Source of the DNA: a virus
Length of the DNA: 37,736 nt
Virus record (IMG/VR): IMGVR_UViG_3300024329_000025
Location: 1-37,736 of that record
Strand: one strand, 5' to 3'
A model generated the notes under the pieces. It saw nothing but the letters and a program-made list of their open reading frames with translations. It was not told the DNA's origin and ran no database searches. How positions within the stretch are numbered: position 1 is the first letter of the stretch; each line of letters opens with the position of its first letter. Positions 25,806 to 34,130 of this stretch are shown piece after piece. The position numbers and the translations under genes were made by a program.

Positions 25806-26017
25806 TAGGAATAAACTGGCAACAAGATCCGCAGCGTTCTATAGAGGAAAAATATGCTTGGTTACCCGTTCGTAGTGGTTCAAACAAACGCATCTGGTTA
25901 AGCAAATATTATGTCCAACACACATATTATGACGATAACGGTAAGCCGCCTATCAAAGGACCCAGTTGGATTTACATTTATACAAAGAATGAATTTCTTC
26001 TAGAACAACTAAAATGA
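25802..26017 (+). CDS. Small conserved-looking protein, unknown
   Basis: A 71-residue protein linked by an ATGA overlap to thyA and by another to the deaminase. It is rich in Trp and Tyr ([19 protein letters not shown], then [12 protein letters not shown]) with no signal peptide, membrane segment or cysteine. The double translational coupling inside the dTMP-synthesis cluster suggests a role in or regulation of nucleotide metabolism, but no domain is recognised. Confidence 0.7.
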
Positions 26018-26454
26018 AAACTAAATTTATAGATGCATATATGGATGTTGCAGAACGATTTGCACAACTAAGTTCAGCGACACGTCTACAAGTTGGTGCT
26101 ATTGTTGTTAAAGACGATCGTATTATTAGTATCGGTTATAATGGTATGCCTACTGGTTGGGATAACTGTTGTGAAGATGTAATAAGAGAAGACGAAGTAG
26201 GATTTCAAGTAACAAAAACTAAAGCTGAAGTTTTACATGCAGAAACTAATGCTATTGCTAAATTAGCAAAAAGCGGGGAGAGTGGCTTGGGTGCAACAAT
26301 GTTTGTTACACATGCTCCTTGTATAGACTGTGCCAAACTAGTCTATCAAAGCGGAATAGCCACTGTGTACTACAAAAACAAATACCGTAGTACACAGGGC
26401 TTAGAATTCCTTAATAAGTCAGGTGTTGAAGTTATTCATCACCATAAACTTTAA
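26014..26454 (+). CDS. cd: Deoxycytidylate (dCMP) deaminase
   Basis: A 146-residue zinc deaminase. Zinc ligands and proton shuttle are His75-Ala-Glu77 (VLHAET) and Pro102-Cys103-x2-Cys106 (APCIDCA). GAIVVKDDRIISIGYNGMP is typical of the ComE/dCMP deaminase family. It makes dUMP for thymidylate synthase. It lacks the N-terminal zinc-binding insert that lengthens T4 Cd (193 residues). The last 23 bases overlap the 3' end of phoH on the other strand. Confidence 0.93.
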   Translation: MKTKFIDAYMDVAERFAQLSSATRLQVGAIVVKDDRIISIGYNGMPTGWDNCCEDVIREDEVGFQVTKTKAEVLHAETNAIAKLAKSGESGLGATMFVTHAPCIDCAKLVYQSGIATVYYKNKYRSTQGLEFLNKSGVEVIHHHKL

Positions 26455-27154
26455 GAACTTCTTTTACTGCATTGTGTCTTTCAATATCTCCTTGACCAAA
26501 GTTGACTATGTCGATATGTGCTGAGTTAGATTGTACTAAACGGTCTGTAAAGTCTATTAAACCGTTATCCTTAATGCGGTCTGCTTGTGCCAAATCACCA
26601 GTTACAGCCATTTGACTTTCTTCACCTAGTCGTGTTAGAAGCATCTTCATTTGATTAGGTGTAGCGTTTTGCATTTCATCCGCTAAAATGAACGATTTTT
26701 TAAATGTTCGTCCACGCATATATGCTAAAGGCGCAATTTCAATTATACCTTCTTCGATCATACCTTCGATTTGTTTTGCATCAAAGTACTCACGTAGTAC
26801 ATCAAATATAGGTCTTGTCCAAGGCGCCATTTTTTGTTCTAACGTTCCTGGTAAGAATCCTAAATCTTCGTCCACACTTACAGCTGGACGAGTAACAATA
26901 ATCTTATCAACTGCACCCTCTTTAAAGAGCTTAACTGCGACCTGTACTGCAAGTAATGTTTTGCCCGTACCTGCAGGACCGATTCCAAAGACAATATCTT
27001 TGGTGTCATCTAACAGTTTTAATACATATGATTCTTGATTTTTGTTTCTAGGAAGTATTGATACTTCTAGTTTTTTGTGTAAAGGTTTAATATTCACTAC
27101 ATTGTCGTAGCTGTTAAAATTTTGCTTGTTAGCAGTCTTTCTTTTAGCACCCAT
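26432..27154 (-). CDS. phoH: PhoH-like P-loop ATPase
   Basis: A 240-residue PhoH core domain: Walker A GPAGTGKT (59-66), IIVTRPAVSVDEDLGFLPG, Walker B FILADEMQNA and sensor TGDLAQ. PhoH ATPases are very common in marine phages and are a phage diversity marker; a role in RNA handling or phosphate-starvation response is suspected but not settled. This is the only minus-strand gene. It has the strongest Shine-Dalgarno in the window (AAAGGAGGA at 27169-27161 on the minus strand), and its leader holds a 10-bp inverted repeat. It converges on and overlaps the dCMP deaminase gene. Confidence 0.93.
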   Translation of the reverse strand: MGAKRKTANKQNFNSYDNVVNIKPLHKKLEVSILPRNKNQESYVLKLLDDTKDIVFGIGPAGTGKTLLAVQVAVKLFKEGAVDKIIVTRPAVSVDEDLGFLPGTLEQKMAPWTRPIFDVLREYFDAKQIEGMIEEGIIEIAPLAYMRGRTFKKSFILADEMQNATPNQMKMLLTRLGEESQMAVTGDLAQADRIKDNGLIDFTDRLVQSNSAHIDIVNFGQGDIERHNAVKEVLKVYGDE

Positions 27155-28578: not shown

Positions 28579-29433
28579 ATGTTGACAGCAGGACAATTTG
28601 CGGATTTATTTCCAAATTGCAAAGATCCAGAGGGATGGGTAGATGCAATGAACGAAGTGTTTCCAAAATATGAAATTAATACCAACCGTAGAGTAGCAGC
28701 ATTCATTGCACAATGCGGACACGAATCCGGAGGCTGGCGGACGTTTAGTGAAAATCTAAACTATAGTGCTAAAGCACTTGATGCAGTTTTTGGTAAATAC
28801 TTTGTTAGAGCAGGAAGAAATGCAGAAGATTACGCTAGAAAACCCGAAAAGATTGCAAATGTGGTGTACGCTGATCGTATGGACAATGGTGCTACAGCAT
28901 CTGGTGATGGGTGGCGTTATCGCGGCCGTGGTCCTATTCAATTAACTGGTAAGGCAAATTATTCAAAATTTGCAGCTGACATGGATGTCGATGTAGTTAA
29001 TAATCCAGATACAGTATCAGAAGACAAAGAAGTAGCACTTATGAGTGCTATTTGGTACTGGAATTCAAATAACTTAAACCGTTACGCAGATAGTGGGGAT
29101 ATTAAAACTCTTACTAAGCGTATCAACGGTGGTTACATCGGACTTGAAGATCGTATTCATCATTGGGAAATGGCACTAGAAGCACTAGGTGAAGATGTAG
29201 AAACACATCACGGTGAAGACGAAGATGACAGTTTTGACTTAGACGATATAGGAGTGTTGCGTAAAGGTGCTCGCGGTGAAGGTGTTAAGATGATGCAGGA
29301 AGCATTAGGCATTGGAGCAGACGGTATCTTCGGCGGCGGAACAGAAACTAAACTTAAAGAATGGCAAGCAGCTAACGGTTTAGATGCTGATGGTATTGCA
29401 GGTCCTTCTACATTAGGTAAATTACTAGGATAA
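28579..29433 (+). CDS. Endolysin: GH19-type glycosidase with peptidoglycan-binding domain
   Basis: A 284-residue lysin. Residues about 1-205 are a glycoside hydrolase 19 (chitinase/lysozyme-like) domain: AAFIAQCGHESGGW with catalytic Glu49, SENLNYS with the second acid Glu58, and YRGRGPIQLTGKANYSKF. After an acidic linker (about 208-224) comes a peptidoglycan-binding domain (LRKGARGEGVKMMQEALG, then LKEWQAANGLDADGIAGP). It cuts the murein glycan at the end of infection. The binding domain is C-terminal. There is no signal peptide, so a holin is needed; spanins and small membrane proteins follow immediately. Confidence 0.92.
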   Translation: MLTAGQFADLFPNCKDPEGWVDAMNEVFPKYEINTNRRVAAFIAQCGHESGGWRTFSENLNYSAKALDAVFGKYFVRAGRNAEDYARKPEKIANVVYADRMDNGATASGDGWRYRGRGPIQLTGKANYSKFAADMDVDVVNNPDTVSEDKEVALMSAIWYWNSNNLNRYADSGDIKTLTKRINGGYIGLEDRIHHWEMALEALGEDVETHHGEDEDDSFDLDDIGVLRKGARGEGVKMMQEALGIGADGIFGGGTETKLKEWQAANGLDADGIAGPSTLGKLLG

Positions 29434-29457: not shown

Positions 29458-29934
29458 ATGGCAAAAATTATGATTGTAATTATTTTAACAATGAGCGGAA
29501 TAGGTTATTGGTACTATACTGACACTCAGAATACCATTGCTGTTCTTACAGAGAACAATGCAAAAATGAGCCTAGCAGTTGCAACTAACGAAGAAACAAT
29601 AAAAACAATGGCGGCGGATTTTGCTGCCGCCAATGAAGAACTCAAAAAAACTAATGCAGAATTTGCAGCTATTAGAAAGCAAAATAATGTATTATCAGAC
29701 AAACTTGCTAAACATGATTTAGAATTGTTAGCAGCAAACAGACCAGATTCAATAGAACGCCTTATCAATAGGGGATCAGTAAATGCCGCAAGGTGTTTTG
29801 AACTGCTTTCTGGGGCAACACTGACGGAGAAAGAGAAAAATGCAAAGAATGAAAAGGCCTTTAACAATGAGTGTCCTTGGCTTTATGACACTTATAAGTC
29901 TCGCGGCATGCTCAACAGCACCACAGAGAATTGA
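29458..29934 (+). CDS. Rz: Rz-like inner-membrane spanin (i-spanin)
   Basis: A 158-residue type II membrane protein: one N-terminal segment (about 4-20, IMIVIILTMSGIGYWYY), then a long periplasmic coiled coil (about 30-95). LLAANRPDSIERLINRGS, typical of Rz-type spanins, is followed by a cysteine region. It spans the periplasm with its lipoprotein partner and fuses inner and outer membranes after murein is cut. The partner gene starts 95 bases before this one ends in another frame, the classical Rz/Rz1 overlap. It follows the endolysin directly. Confidence 0.8.
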   Translation: MAKIMIVIILTMSGIGYWYYTDTQNTIAVLTENNAKMSLAVATNEETIKTMAADFAAANEELKKTNAEFAAIRKQNNVLSDKLAKHDLELLAANRPDSIERLINRGSVNAARCFELLSGATLTEKEKNAKNEKAFNNECPWLYDTYKSRGMLNSTTEN

Positions 29935-30319
29935 AGTAACAAGTAAACCTATTCAAAAACCTGAACTCATACTTCCAGGTGTTGATCAAGTTACAATGCG
30001 TAAAATTGAATGGATTATAATTACAGAAGAAAATATGGAAGAAGAAATTGCTAAGTGGACTGCTGGCGGCAAACCGTTAGCAGTATTTGCAATTACTGCA
30101 CAAGGGTATGAAAACCTCGGGCAAAATTTTAGTGATGTACGAGCATTAGTACAGCAACAACAGCAAATAATTCTTGCATACGAAAATTACTATAAAGCTG
30201 CAAATACCGCATTAGATGATGCAGAAATATCAAGACAACAAGAAGAAACAAAAGACGCAGTTGAAGCAGCACAACGCAATACTTCATTAGTTGATAAGCT
30301 CAACCCATTTAACGACTAA
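29840..30319 (+). CDS. Rz1: Rz1-like outer-membrane lipoprotein spanin (o-spanin)
   Basis: A 159-residue lipoprotein with signal peptide and lipobox Leu21-Ala-Ala-Cys24; the mature form begins at Cys24 and has about 136 residues. This is long for an o-spanin. The mature chain has a Pro-containing start (KPIQKPELILPGV) and a long helical, Gln-rich segment (VRALVQQQQQIILAYENYY). ATG 29840 was chosen for its GGAGA Shine-Dalgarno and because it precedes the signal peptide. The first 95 bases overlap the i-spanin gene out of frame. The pair would mediate outer-membrane disruption. Confidence 0.8.
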   Translation: MQRMKRPLTMSVLGFMTLISLAACSTAPQRIEVTSKPIQKPELILPGVDQVTMRKIEWIIITEENMEEEIAKWTAGGKPLAVFAITAQGYENLGQNFSDVRALVQQQQQIILAYENYYKAANTALDDAEISRQQEETKDAVEAAQRNTSLVDKLNPFND

Positions 30320-30351: not shown

Positions 30352-30636
30352 ATGCAACTTATAGATAGTATGTTAAGTGACACACTGTGGATCTATACAA
30401 GTATTATAGGAGCACTTTTAGGCGCGGCTTTTCTGGCGTATTTTAGGAATACAAGGGCAGGACTTTGGTGTTATGCAAAGTTCGATACGTTTTTAGATTG
30501 GCTAGTTGAACGTTGGGGGCTTACTTGGTTTGAACAGCCAATAGATGCGTGGCGCAAAAAGTATCCTTATGTAACAAAGAAAATAGACGAGTTAGAGGCT
30601 CGCATAGCAGAACTAGAGGGAAAGTCAAATGAGTGA
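30352..30636 (+). CDS. Small membrane protein, possible holin-associated
   Basis: A 94-residue protein with one hydrophobic segment near residues 12-31 (LWIYTSIIGALLGAAFLAYF). A Trp-rich amphipathic region (LDWLVERWGLTWFEQPIDAW) follows, then a charged C-terminal coil (KIDELEARIAELEGKSNE). It overlaps the next membrane protein gene by 8 bases. The position right after endolysin and spanins makes a holin, antiholin or pinholin role plausible, but no family signature is visible. Confidence 0.6.
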   Translation: MQLIDSMLSDTLWIYTSIIGALLGAAFLAYFRNTRAGLWCYAKFDTFLDWLVERWGLTWFEQPIDAWRKKYPYVTKKIDELEARIAELEGKSNE

Positions 30637-30958
30637 AGAAGAAATCAAAAAGACAGGGCATCATCCAGCAGATACAAACGGAGACGGTAAAGTATCTGAT
30701 GAAGAACATGCAATGTACATGGAGTTTAAACGTAAAGAATTAGAAGATGCAGATGCAATGCGTGATGCACAACGTAATATGGCGTGGTTTGCATTATTTG
30801 GTATGTTACTATACCCATTTGCTGTAGTATTAGCAGTTCTGGTAGGACTAGATCAGGCATCAAAAATATTAGGTGACATGGCAGCAACATACTTTGTTTC
30901 TGTTGCAGCAATCGTAGCTGCGTTCTTTGGTGGTCAAGCGTTTGGTAAAAATAAGTAA
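30629..30958 (+). CDS. EF-hand-containing two-pass membrane protein, candidate holin
   Basis: A 109-residue protein with a canonical 12-residue EF-hand loop near its N-terminus: Asp15, Asn17, Asp19, Gly20, Val22 and Glu26 in DTNGDGKVSDEE. A charged helix follows, then two hydrophobic segments (about 50-73, MAWFALFGMLLYPFAVVLAV; about 87-105, YFVSVAAIVAAFFGGQAFG). I recall similar small proteins with HPADTNGDG near the N-terminus in marine phages. The place at the end of the lysis cassette and the topology suit a holin. Calcium binding and a holin role are both inferred. Confidence 0.7.
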   Translation: MSEEEIKKTGHHPADTNGDGKVSDEEHAMYMEFKRKELEDADAMRDAQRNMAWFALFGMLLYPFAVVLAVLVGLDQASKILGDMAATYFVSVAAIVAAFFGGQAFGKNK

Positions 30959-31001: not shown

Positions 31002-31877
31002 ATGGACTATTATTCTATTTTAGGTGTTCAAAAGAACGCTTCCGACAAAGATTTAAAGAGCGCATACAAAAAAGCAAGTATGCAGCACCACCCCGATCGA
31101 GGCGGTGACGAAGCCAAATTCAAACAAATCAACGAAGCATACAGTACACTAAAAGATCCACAAAAGCGAGGCATGTACGACCATCAACAAAACGGTGGTG
31201 GTCAAGCATTTAATTTTAATGCAGGCGGATTTGAAGAAGCAATGCGTCAAGCAAATGCGCAATATGGAGGCGGGAATCCTTTTGCAGGCTCACCATTTCA
31301 AGACATCTTTAGAAATCAACAACACCCGCATCAAAGTAGAACTCCGAGAAATCGTGATATAACACTCGAAGCTAAAATCGAATTAGGTGACGTATTAACT
31401 GGTAAAAATTTAATCATACAGTATACGTTGTCAAATAGACATTTAGAAACTGTTAATGTAGATGTGCCGCCAGGGGCAAGAGAAGGTGATACAATAAAAT
31501 ATCAAGGTCTAGGAGATAACGGAGATCCCCGTTTTCCAAGAGGTGATTTACATATAAAGATACGTATACACAAACACCGTAGTTGGGCAAGGGATGGTGA
31601 CAATTTAATTGCTAAAATGGGTACGAATTTGTTTGACTTTTTAACAGGAGGTGTTATAATAGTTAAAACATTAGATAATAAGGAGATAAAAGTAAATATA
31701 CCACAGGGAACACATCCGGGTCAAGTGTTTAATATCCCCGGTTACGGAATTCCTAATTTACGTACAGGCAAACGTGGAAACGTTTATATTACTGTTAATG
31801 CAAACGTTCCAAAAATAACAGACACAAATCTTTTAAATAAGATAACACAATTAAAAAATGAACTTAAGGATTTATAG
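31002..31877 (+). CDS. dnaJ: DnaJ/Hsp40-like co-chaperone (no zinc finger)
   Basis: A 291-residue type II Hsp40, similar in layout to CbpA. The J domain covers residues 1-62 with the His30-Pro31-Asp32 motif that stimulates DnaK. A Gly/Phe-rich linker lies at about 64-105. The C-terminal substrate-binding region contains VDVPPGAREGDTIKYQGLGD, GDLHIKIRIHKH and VNIPQGTHPGQVFNIPGYG. The four CxxCxGxG zinc motifs of DnaJ are absent. It probably recruits host DnaK to phage proteins. The clpA-like gene starts three bases after its stop, suggesting a proteostasis operon. Confidence 0.92.
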   Translation: MDYYSILGVQKNASDKDLKSAYKKASMQHHPDRGGDEAKFKQINEAYSTLKDPQKRGMYDHQQNGGGQAFNFNAGGFEEAMRQANAQYGGGNPFAGSPFQDIFRNQQHPHQSRTPRNRDITLEAKIELGDVLTGKNLIIQYTLSNRHLETVNVDVPPGAREGDTIKYQGLGDNGDPRFPRGDLHIKIRIHKHRSWARDGDNLIAKMGTNLFDFLTGGVIIVKTLDNKEIKVNIPQGTHPGQVFNIPGYGIPNLRTGKRGNVYITVNANVPKITDTNLLNKITQLKNELKDL

Positions 31878-31880
31878 AGC

Positions 31881-34130
31881 ATGGTAGAACCAAGTAGCGA
31901 GTTAAAACTAGTATTTGATAAAAGTATTAAAGACGCACAAAAATTAAAACATGAATATGTAACATTAGAACATTTGTTATATGCAATGTTTTGCGAGGAA
32001 AACTTTGTTAATATTATTACAATGTTTGGTGCTGACGTCGATTACGCTAAAGCTAATCTTGAACATCATCTAAAAACTAACTGCGATGATATCAAAACTG
32101 ATGCAGATAAATTTAAGCCAAAGAAAACTACTACAGTAGAACGTGTATTAAATCGAGCATTTACTCAGGTTTTATTTGCCGGTCGTAGTCACATTGAATT
32201 AACCGATGTATTACTTGCAATGCTTTCTGAAAAGAAAAGTATCTGTACATACTTCCTTGAAAAAGCTGGTATTGAAAAAGTAAAATTTGCTGCATTTATT
32301 GATAACGAAGTTATAGATGAGCAAGAAGGCGAAGAAATGTCCGCTGAAGCACGTAAAGCACTACGTGCATTTACAACTAACCTTAACGACGAAGTTAAAA
32401 AAGGTAAAGTTGATCCTATTATCGGACGTACAGATGAATTAGAAAAACTAGCACTTGCACTTGGACGTAGAGCTAAAAATAATGTACTAATGGTTGGTGA
32501 TCCTGGTGTAGGTAAAACCGCAATTGCAGAGGGACTTGCATTTAAAATTGAGCAAGACGATGTACCTAATTTCTTAAAAGAATATAAAGTATACAATCTA
32601 GATATCGGTGCTATGCTTGCCGGTTCAAAGTACCGTGGAGACTTTGAAGAACGTTTCAAACTAGTTTTGCAAGGACTTACAAAGCAAGGTAAAACTATTA
32701 TGTTTATCGATGAAGCGCATATGATCAACGGTGCGGGTGCAGGCGGCCAAGGCAATTCAAACGATCTTGCTAATATGCTCAAGCCTGCACTTACTAAAGG
32801 CGATTTGAAAGTTGTTGCTTCAACTACATGGGAAGAATATCGCAAGTACTTTGAAAAGGATCGTGCATTAATGCGTCGATTCCAGCGTGTTACTATTGAC
32901 GAGCCAACACCTGAAGTAACTAAAGATATATTAAATGGTATTAAAAAGTATTATGAAGACTATCATGCAACTGTAATTACAGAGGAAGCAATCGATGCCG
33001 CTGTTAAACTCAGCGTAAAATATCAAAGCGATAAAAAATTGCCAGACAAAGCAATTGATTTAATTGATATTGCATGTTCGCGTTTTAAATTAAACGACGA
33101 TCATGAAGGTGATAAGATTATTAATGAATCTAATATACAATACGAGCTTTCTAAAATTATTGATATGCCAGCAGAACAAGTTGCTGAAAAAGAAAGTGAA
33201 AATCTTATGCACCTTGAAGACAATCTAAAGAAAGTTGTATACGGACAGGATCGAGCAATCGAAAGTATTGTTGATAAGATACTTGTTAGCCAAGCAGGAC
33301 TAAAGCCAGATGATAAACCAGTAGGTGCATTTGTGTTTATGGGCCCAACAGGCACAGGTAAAACTGAAACTGCAAAAGCACTTGCATCTAATCTAGGTGT
33401 TAAACTTGTACGTTTTGATATGAGTGAATACATGGAGAAGCATAGTGTTGCTAAGTTGATTGGTTCGCCTCCGGGATATGTTGGTCATGAAGATAATGCA
33501 GGACAGTTAATTACTCGATTGCAAGAAAATCCTAATTGTGTATTGCTTTTAGATGAAATTGAAAAGGCACATCCTGATGTTTCACAAATTTTGTTACAGT
33601 TAATGGACAATGGCATGGTTACTGGTAGTAACGGTAAAGAAGCTGATGCACGTAACTGTACACTAATTCTTACAACTAACTTAGGTGCTAAACAAGCAGA
33701 GAAAAATGCTATTGGCTTTGGTGAAGAAGAAGAATTTACATACGAAGATACTGAATTTAAACGTTTCTTTGCGCCAGAGTTTAGAAATAGACTTGACGGT
33801 GTGATTACGTTTGCTAAATTAGGTAAAGAAGTAATGATGAAAATCGTTGGTAAGTTCTTGCTTGAACTTAAAAATATGGTTATTGATAAAAATATCGATA
33901 TTACTGTTACTGACGAAGCACTTGATTACTTAGTAGAGAAAGGATTTGATCCTAAAAACGGAGCTCGTCCATTACAGCGTGTGATCGACAAAGAAATTAA
34001 ACGTCCATTGTCTAGACAAATACTATTTGGTGATTTGAAGAATGGTGGAACAGTTAATATTGACTTTGTTAACGACAATCTAGAGTTAAATGTAGTAAAT
34101 GAACCCCAAAAAGCCACTGAAACTGTATGA
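31881..34130 (+). CDS. clpA: ClpA-type AAA+ unfoldase
   Basis: A 749-residue ClpA-like protein (E. coli ClpA has 758). An N-terminal Clp N domain (about 1-150) contains HEYVTLEHLLYAMF. The first AAA+ module has Walker A GDPGVGKT (206-213) and Walker B TIMFIDEAH. The second has GPTGTGKT (488-495), CVLLLDEIEKAHPDV and FAPEFRNRLDG. No coiled-coil M domain is present, so it is ClpA-like, not ClpB-like. Ile611-Gly612-Phe613 occupies the position of the ClpP-docking loop (IGL in ClpA, IGF in ClpX). It should therefore feed substrates to host ClpP, changing which proteins are degraded. The next gene overlaps its last 32 bases. Confidence 0.93.
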   Translation: MVEPSSELKLVFDKSIKDAQKLKHEYVTLEHLLYAMFCEENFVNIITMFGADVDYAKANLEHHLKTNCDDIKTDADKFKPKKTTTVERVLNRAFTQVLFAGRSHIELTDVLLAMLSEKKSICTYFLEKAGIEKVKFAAFIDNEVIDEQEGEEMSAEARKALRAFTTNLNDEVKKGKVDPIIGRTDELEKLALALGRRAKNNVLMVGDPGVGKTAIAEGLAFKIEQDDVPNFLKEYKVYNLDIGAMLAGSKYRGDFEERFKLVLQGLTKQGKTIMFIDEAHMINGAGAGGQGNSNDLANMLKPALTKGDLKVVASTTWEEYRKYFEKDRALMRRFQRVTIDEPTPEVTKDILNGIKKYYEDYHATVITEEAIDAAVKLSVKYQSDKKLPDKAIDLIDIACSRFKLNDDHEGDKIINESNIQYELSKIIDMPAEQVAEKESENLMHLEDNLKKVVYGQDRAIESIVDKILVSQAGLKPDDKPVGAFVFMGPTGTGKTETAKALASNLGVKLVRFDMSEYMEKHSVAKLIGSPPGYVGHEDNAGQLITRLQENPNCVLLLDEIEKAHPDVSQILLQLMDNGMVTGSNGKEADARNCTLILTTNLGAKQAEKNAIGFGEEEEFTYEDTEFKRFFAPEFRNRLDGVITFAKLGKEVMMKIVGKFLLELKNMVIDKNIDITVTDEALDYLVEKGFDPKNGARPLQRVIDKEIKRPLSRQILFGDLKNGGTVNIDFVNDNLELNVVNEPQKATETV

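Follow-up and report, generated by a model that had tools for sequence, protein, structure and literature searches.

A conserved EF-hand loop on a small two-transmembrane protein of phage lysis modules, a candidate calcium-binding holin or holin partner

We analysed IMG/VR virus record IMGVR_UViG_3300024329_000025, which comprises 37,736 bases from an uncultivated virus; it is a genome fragment and is called the window below. At the end of its lysis cassette lies a gene for a small protein in which a 12-residue EF-hand loop is followed by two predicted transmembrane (TM) segments. The loop is genuine, is held by strong purifying selection and very likely binds Ca2+. On balance, we favour the view that the protein is a Ca2+-binding membrane protein of lysis, either a holin or a holin partner. 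The gene and its parts are as follows.

30629-30958, plus strand: EF-hand two-TM protein of the lysis module, 109 amino acids, ATG start.
30671-30706, plus strand: codons of the 12-residue EF loop, D15-E26; ligand positions invariant over 311 relatives, synonymous codons free.
30743-30787, plus strand: conserved charged juxtamembrane segment, residues 39-53, E-D-x-D-x3-D-A-Q-R-x-M-A-W.
30788-30844, plus strand: predicted TM1, residues 54-72, from hydropathy; continuous in the structure model with the helix (24-71) leaving the EF loop.
30878-30934, plus strand: predicted TM2, residues 84-102, Ala/Gly-rich.

Residues 15-26 of the protein (DTNGDGKVSDEE: D15, T, N17, G, D19, G20, K, V22, S, D, E, E26) comprised ligands at loop positions 1, 3, 5 and 12, a glycine at position 6 and a hydrophobic residue at position 8. 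Among the open reading frames (ORFs) of at least 40 amino acids in the window, the core motif D.[DNS].[DNS]G.[LIVM]...[DE] was unique to this one, which was also the sole plus-strand ORF shorter than 350 amino acids with two TM segments by hydropathy. A preliminary description of this DNA had called the loop perfect: the residues that it named were all present, but the strict PROSITE EF-hand pattern was missed because position 13 is occupied by H27 where a hydrophobic residue is wanted, and the EF-hand_5 match (E 0.0072, 16.2 bits) fell under the Pfam gathering cut-off of 25.9. The strict pattern was satisfied by 159 of 248 relatives, and the protein of DC31, a freshwater phage of Limnohabitans, also scored under the gathering cut-off (22.2 bits). 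The two membrane segments that the same description placed after the loop agreed with the hydropathy prediction, and the loop, whose absence from relatives it had regarded as fatal to its proposal, proved to be conserved.

Relatives were collected from IMG/VR, phage isolates and bacterial genomes, giving 316 loci in total and a family of hundreds of sequences from marine and freshwater phages. From bacterial genomes, scanned once, came a single relative, L088; its contig is metagenome-assembled and its neighbours are phage-like. The core motif was found in 311 of the 316 loci; of the other five, four are genes truncated by the end of a contig and one contains an ambiguous base. All 311 loops had D at position 1, G at 6 and E at 12. 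In part this follows from the motif by which loops were picked, which already fixes the first two and admits only D or E at the third. Positions 3 and 5 were limited to D or N and position 8 to V, I or L, with positions 2, 7, 10 and 11 variable. The same picture was obtained with 61 representatives sharing less than 85% identity: residues 15, 20 and 26 were fixed except for one ambiguous base, residue 17 was only D or N and residue 22 only V, I or L, and residues 16 and 21 and the loop flanks drifted. At the invariant residues synonymous codons differed, with four Gly codons at residue 20 and both GAA (36) and GAG (25) at residue 26. A loop-independent scan, with patterns confined to the juxtamembrane and TM2 segments, recovered 68 relatives (two of them from the isolate search), and 67 of these had the EF loop. 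As a background, the motif occurred in 9 of 2990 unrelated neighbouring ORFs (479,499 amino acids, 248 loci), six of the nine being the same DIDNDGDVDSSD sequence. This sequence is the EF-like motif of a neighbour family, located upstream of the EF-hand gene in L016, L034, L035, L040, L075 and L077.

In the PDB, the family profile matched calmodulins and calcium-binding proteins (best E over a whole sequence 1.7e-9; single stretches gave weaker matches), and EF-hand_5 matched 42 of 54 family members, with a best E of 1.4e-5. The protein shares with calmodulin-type EF hands (PF13202, PF00036) the ligand pattern D-x-[DN]-x-[DN]-G-x-[VIL]-[ST]-x-x-E and the exiting helix; however, loops are paired in the former, whereas a single loop is fused here to a membrane hairpin. 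The entering helix also differed, being short (residues 10-14) and of low predicted local distance difference test (pLDDT) in the model of the DC31-type protein and absent from the window prediction. Glu rather than Asp at EF position 12 favours Ca2+ over Mg2+.

Besides the loop, the most conserved stretch of the protein was the segment from E39 to W53, in which D42, D46, Q48, R49, M51 and W53 were nearly invariant. Lys and Arg averaged 4.7 in the N-terminal flank, 0.75 between the TM segments and 2.7 in the tail, and the positive-inside rule accordingly predicts that both ends, and hence the loop, are cytoplasmic. The structure model placed helices at 24-71 (continuous), 75-83 and 85-108. As the first of these connects the end of the loop to TM1 without a break, Ca2+ binding could be coupled mechanically to the membrane hairpin. 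A Foldseek search against viral structures gave no match below E 1.

The loop might instead be a constitutive structural or stabilising site, with Ca2+ or Mg2+ always bound, or a juxtamembrane helix N-cap, and no calcium signal would then be read. We give this a considerable probability, somewhat short of even. It would suit the single, unpaired loop, which is kept alike in freshwater-type and marine relatives, as well as the window clade, in which positions -4, -1 and +13 are H11, A14 and H27 and the usual hydrophobic flanks are missing. Most relatives, however, carry aromatic or hydrophobic residues at these three positions, as ordinary regulatory EF hands do; the invariant Glu at position 12 points to Ca2+, not Mg2+; and the predicted side of the membrane is the cytoplasmic one, where free Ca2+ is low.

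As the preliminary description had stated, the gene lies at the end of the lysis cassette. In the window it comes after an endolysin, two spanin-like genes and a small one-TM protein, and before genes for DnaJ and a Clp ATPase.

28579-29433, plus strand: endolysin, GH19 and PG_binding_1 (phrog_181, E 3.3e-81; PF00182, E 4.1e-16; PF01471, E 2.4e-11).
29458-29934, plus strand: Rz-like inner-membrane spanin (phrog_739, E 3.1e-10).
29840-30319, plus strand: Rz1-like outer-membrane spanin lipoprotein with a LAAC lipobox, overlapping the Rz-like gene (phrog_812, E 7.6e-7).
30352-30636, plus strand: 94-amino-acid one-TM protein, weakly XhlA-like (XhlA, E 0.00026, below cut-off).
31002-31877, downstream of the EF-hand gene: DnaJ-like co-chaperone, DnaJ and DnaJ_C.
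31881-34130, directly after the DnaJ-like gene: full-length Clp ATPase with Clp_N, AAA domains and ClpB_D2-small.

No TM segment was predicted in the endolysin, which should therefore need a hole to exit the cell. The last 8 nt of the 94-amino-acid gene are shared with the start of the EF-hand gene, and the product of the former is a possible partner of the EF-hand protein.

To describe the setting in relatives, the 316 loci were grouped into 25 clusters at 70% identity; a gene was counted as near when within 3 kb, and a cluster was scored if any member was positive. An endolysin was near the EF-hand gene in 16 clusters, a spanin in 13, a GTA-type holin in 5 and any lysis gene in 20, and the endolysins came from several unrelated families; the linkage to lysis genes is strong, though short of universal. 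Taking 6 kb of a 55-kb genome (11%) as near, the binomial tail for 16 of 25 clusters was 3.5e-10, a rough guide given any-member scoring, non-independent clusters and mechanical gene calling. Among isolates, the EF-hand gene was directly upstream of the endolysin in CRP-1 and CRP-9, and was followed by a spanin and then an endolysin in CRP-345, and by an Rz-like gene and then a peptidase endolysin in DC31. The DC31-like set had the EF-hand gene, the Rz-like gene and an M15 endolysin in this order, with GH108 or GH19 sometimes replacing M15. In Melnitz and every annotated isolate examined, the EF-hand gene was labelled 'hypothetical protein'. Given the purifying selection on the loop, the two TM segments and the recurrence of relatives next to such varied endolysins, we regard a role in lysis as the best reading and as likely.

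Several observations weigh against this assignment. A recognised lysis gene was within 3 kb in only 158 of the 316 loci, and the loci lacking one included nearly all of those lying between gp51 and the tape measure gene and the CRP-207 group; many loci are short, and some of these absences are therefore uninformative. In 53 loci, including phages HTVC008M and Melnitz, the gene was set among tail genes, typically with gp51 on one side and a putative tape measure gene on the other. A GTA-type three-TM holin was also encoded near the EF-hand gene in the five clusters mentioned. No holin family was reached with a clear score: PHROGs and NCBIfam gave no named family and no holin match, and Phage_holin_3_6 matched 17 of 54 members weakly (best E 9.4e-5), the window protein not among them. 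The structure models were of moderate quality (pLDDT 71 and 68.5, predicted template modelling score 0.43), with the loop region of low confidence in both, and a lone EF loop often binds weakly.

Three other candidate assignments were discarded. The match to the SLATT two-TM effectors (NF033634) scored 16 bits against a cut-off of 41, that to XopAW was weak and probably due to the EF loop alone, and GTA_holin_3TM was set aside for a protein with two TM segments and no PF11351 match.

Since five clusters encode a GTA-type three-TM holin as well, the EF-hand protein may be a holin partner and not the holin itself; we consider the two about equally probable. Thus, of the preliminary description of a candidate holin, the lysis role stands as the best reading, and the hole-forming role is weakened by the GTA-type holins and by the siting among tail genes in HTVC008M and Melnitz. 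Within the window fragment, the ORF was the only short two-TM candidate; elsewhere it adjoins a three-TM holin. The protein could be an accessory or antiholin-like partner that delays or sharpens a true holin, be it the GTA-type three-TM protein, a c9-type one-TM protein or the 94-amino-acid XhlA-like protein, a reading that we hold as tentative, with perhaps one chance in three. In CRP-810, a GTA_holin_3TM gene (PF11351, E 2.5e-20) comes immediately after the EF-hand gene and is followed by GH108; in addition, one-TM proteins recur beside the EF-hand gene. A precedent exists in mycobacteriophages Girr and NBJ, in which the two-TM, N-in/C-in LysF1a and the one-TM LysF1b are both required for efficient lysis (PMC13056207). 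Nevertheless, the large freshwater-type set has the EF-hand gene, the Rz-like gene and the M15 endolysin without a recognised holin, and the one-TM neighbours change between lineages, whereas the EF-hand gene is constant.

Comparison with known systems gave partial likenesses. GTA_holin_3TM proteins are neighbours within the same lysis modules, but they have three TM segments and a separate gene, and the EF-hand protein was unmatched to them in all searches. Class II holins such as S21, together with LysF1a of Girr and NBJ (PMC13056207), are likewise short, with two TM helices and ends predicted as cytoplasmic, and stand beside endolysin and spanin genes, a setting that the HTVC008M/Melnitz type lacks. 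They differ in that a sequence relationship to the EF-hand protein was not found. We know of no S21-type class II holin or LysF1a with an EF hand. XhlA/XhlB pairs also combine a small one-TM protein (weakly XhlA-like in the window, L034 and L135) with an adjoining two-TM protein; however, the XhlA match in the window was below cut-off and the two-TM protein had no XhlB match. Calcium sites are reportedly known in endolysins, such as that of an E. faecalis phage; calcium in phage lysis is common to both cases, but there the enzyme, not a membrane protein, binds the metal. In the literature searched, which covers few subscription journals, no EF-hand or calcium-gated holin was described.

That the protein is a tail or baseplate assembly factor, anchoring hub assembly to the membrane, with its proximity to lysis genes incidental, is improbable: the 53 tail-context loci suit it, but further contigs with T4-like or other content (L049, L051, L042) place the gene among glycan or unrelated genes, it belongs to the lysis module in the window phage and stands beside endolysins in Roseobacter and Limnohabitans phages, and the T4 holin gene t likewise lies far from the endolysin gene e.

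For a Ca2+-binding holin or holin partner, we infer the following scheme. The protein would be a holin-like inner-membrane protein with two TM segments, N-in/C-in, binding one Ca2+ via its cytoplasmic EF loop. Late in infection it would accumulate in the inner membrane, its loop unoccupied owing to the low free Ca2+ of the cytoplasm. A first lesion, or loss of the membrane potential, would admit Ca2+, the loop would fill and the juxtamembrane helix would stiffen; the hairpins might then assemble, or free a partner holin, with abrupt hole formation and endolysin escape. A full calcium-gated switch of this kind, in which the holin or partner reads cytoplasmic Ca2+ through the EF hand and the first influx fires all hairpins simultaneously, is in our view rather unlikely. 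Of the two calcium sources put forward in the preliminary description, the predicted cytoplasmic loop fits entry on depolarisation better than seawater calcium, and the latter was rejected as the reason for the loop, since DC31 and its freshwater relatives also keep it.

Other features were noted around the gene. A DnaJ-like gene was again next to the EF-hand gene in 11 related loci, and a Clp ATPase gene likewise in 11. A family of about 155 amino acids with one C-terminal TM segment (phrog_32327, function unknown) was found just upstream in L093, L231, L321 and others and, being recurrent in many lysis modules, is a candidate lysis partner. Upstream of the EF-hand gene in CRP-207, gp73 (L083:3292-3867) is annotated 'putative lysozyme' and resembles a one-TM coiled-coil protein; family searches gave no lysozyme match for it. 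The window also encodes a tail-fibre gene, a T4 gp9/10-like protein (weak, E 5e-5), parts of a DNA polymerase and an exonuclease, a thymidylate synthase and an AAA protein with a DNA polymerase III delta'-type match. At 26014-27154, a deoxycytidylate-deaminase-like gene (plus strand) and a PhoH-like gene (minus strand) appeared, from reading the sequence, to overlap at their 3' ends by 23 nt.

What sets the moment at which a holin opens has long been asked, and many holins are triggered prematurely when energy poisons abolish the membrane potential. A conserved Ca2+ site on a membrane protein of lysis would be a physical means of sensing this loss of potential, and calcium may help these phages to time the bursting of their hosts. 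The paper on Melnitz named no holin of its own; it put forward CsgG, the curli pore, as an analogue of a pinholin (PMC9004378). If the calcium switch were true, the EF-hand protein would also be a candidate for the holin of HTVC008M-like and Melnitz-like phages, and its gene provides a named candidate in phages where no holin is known.
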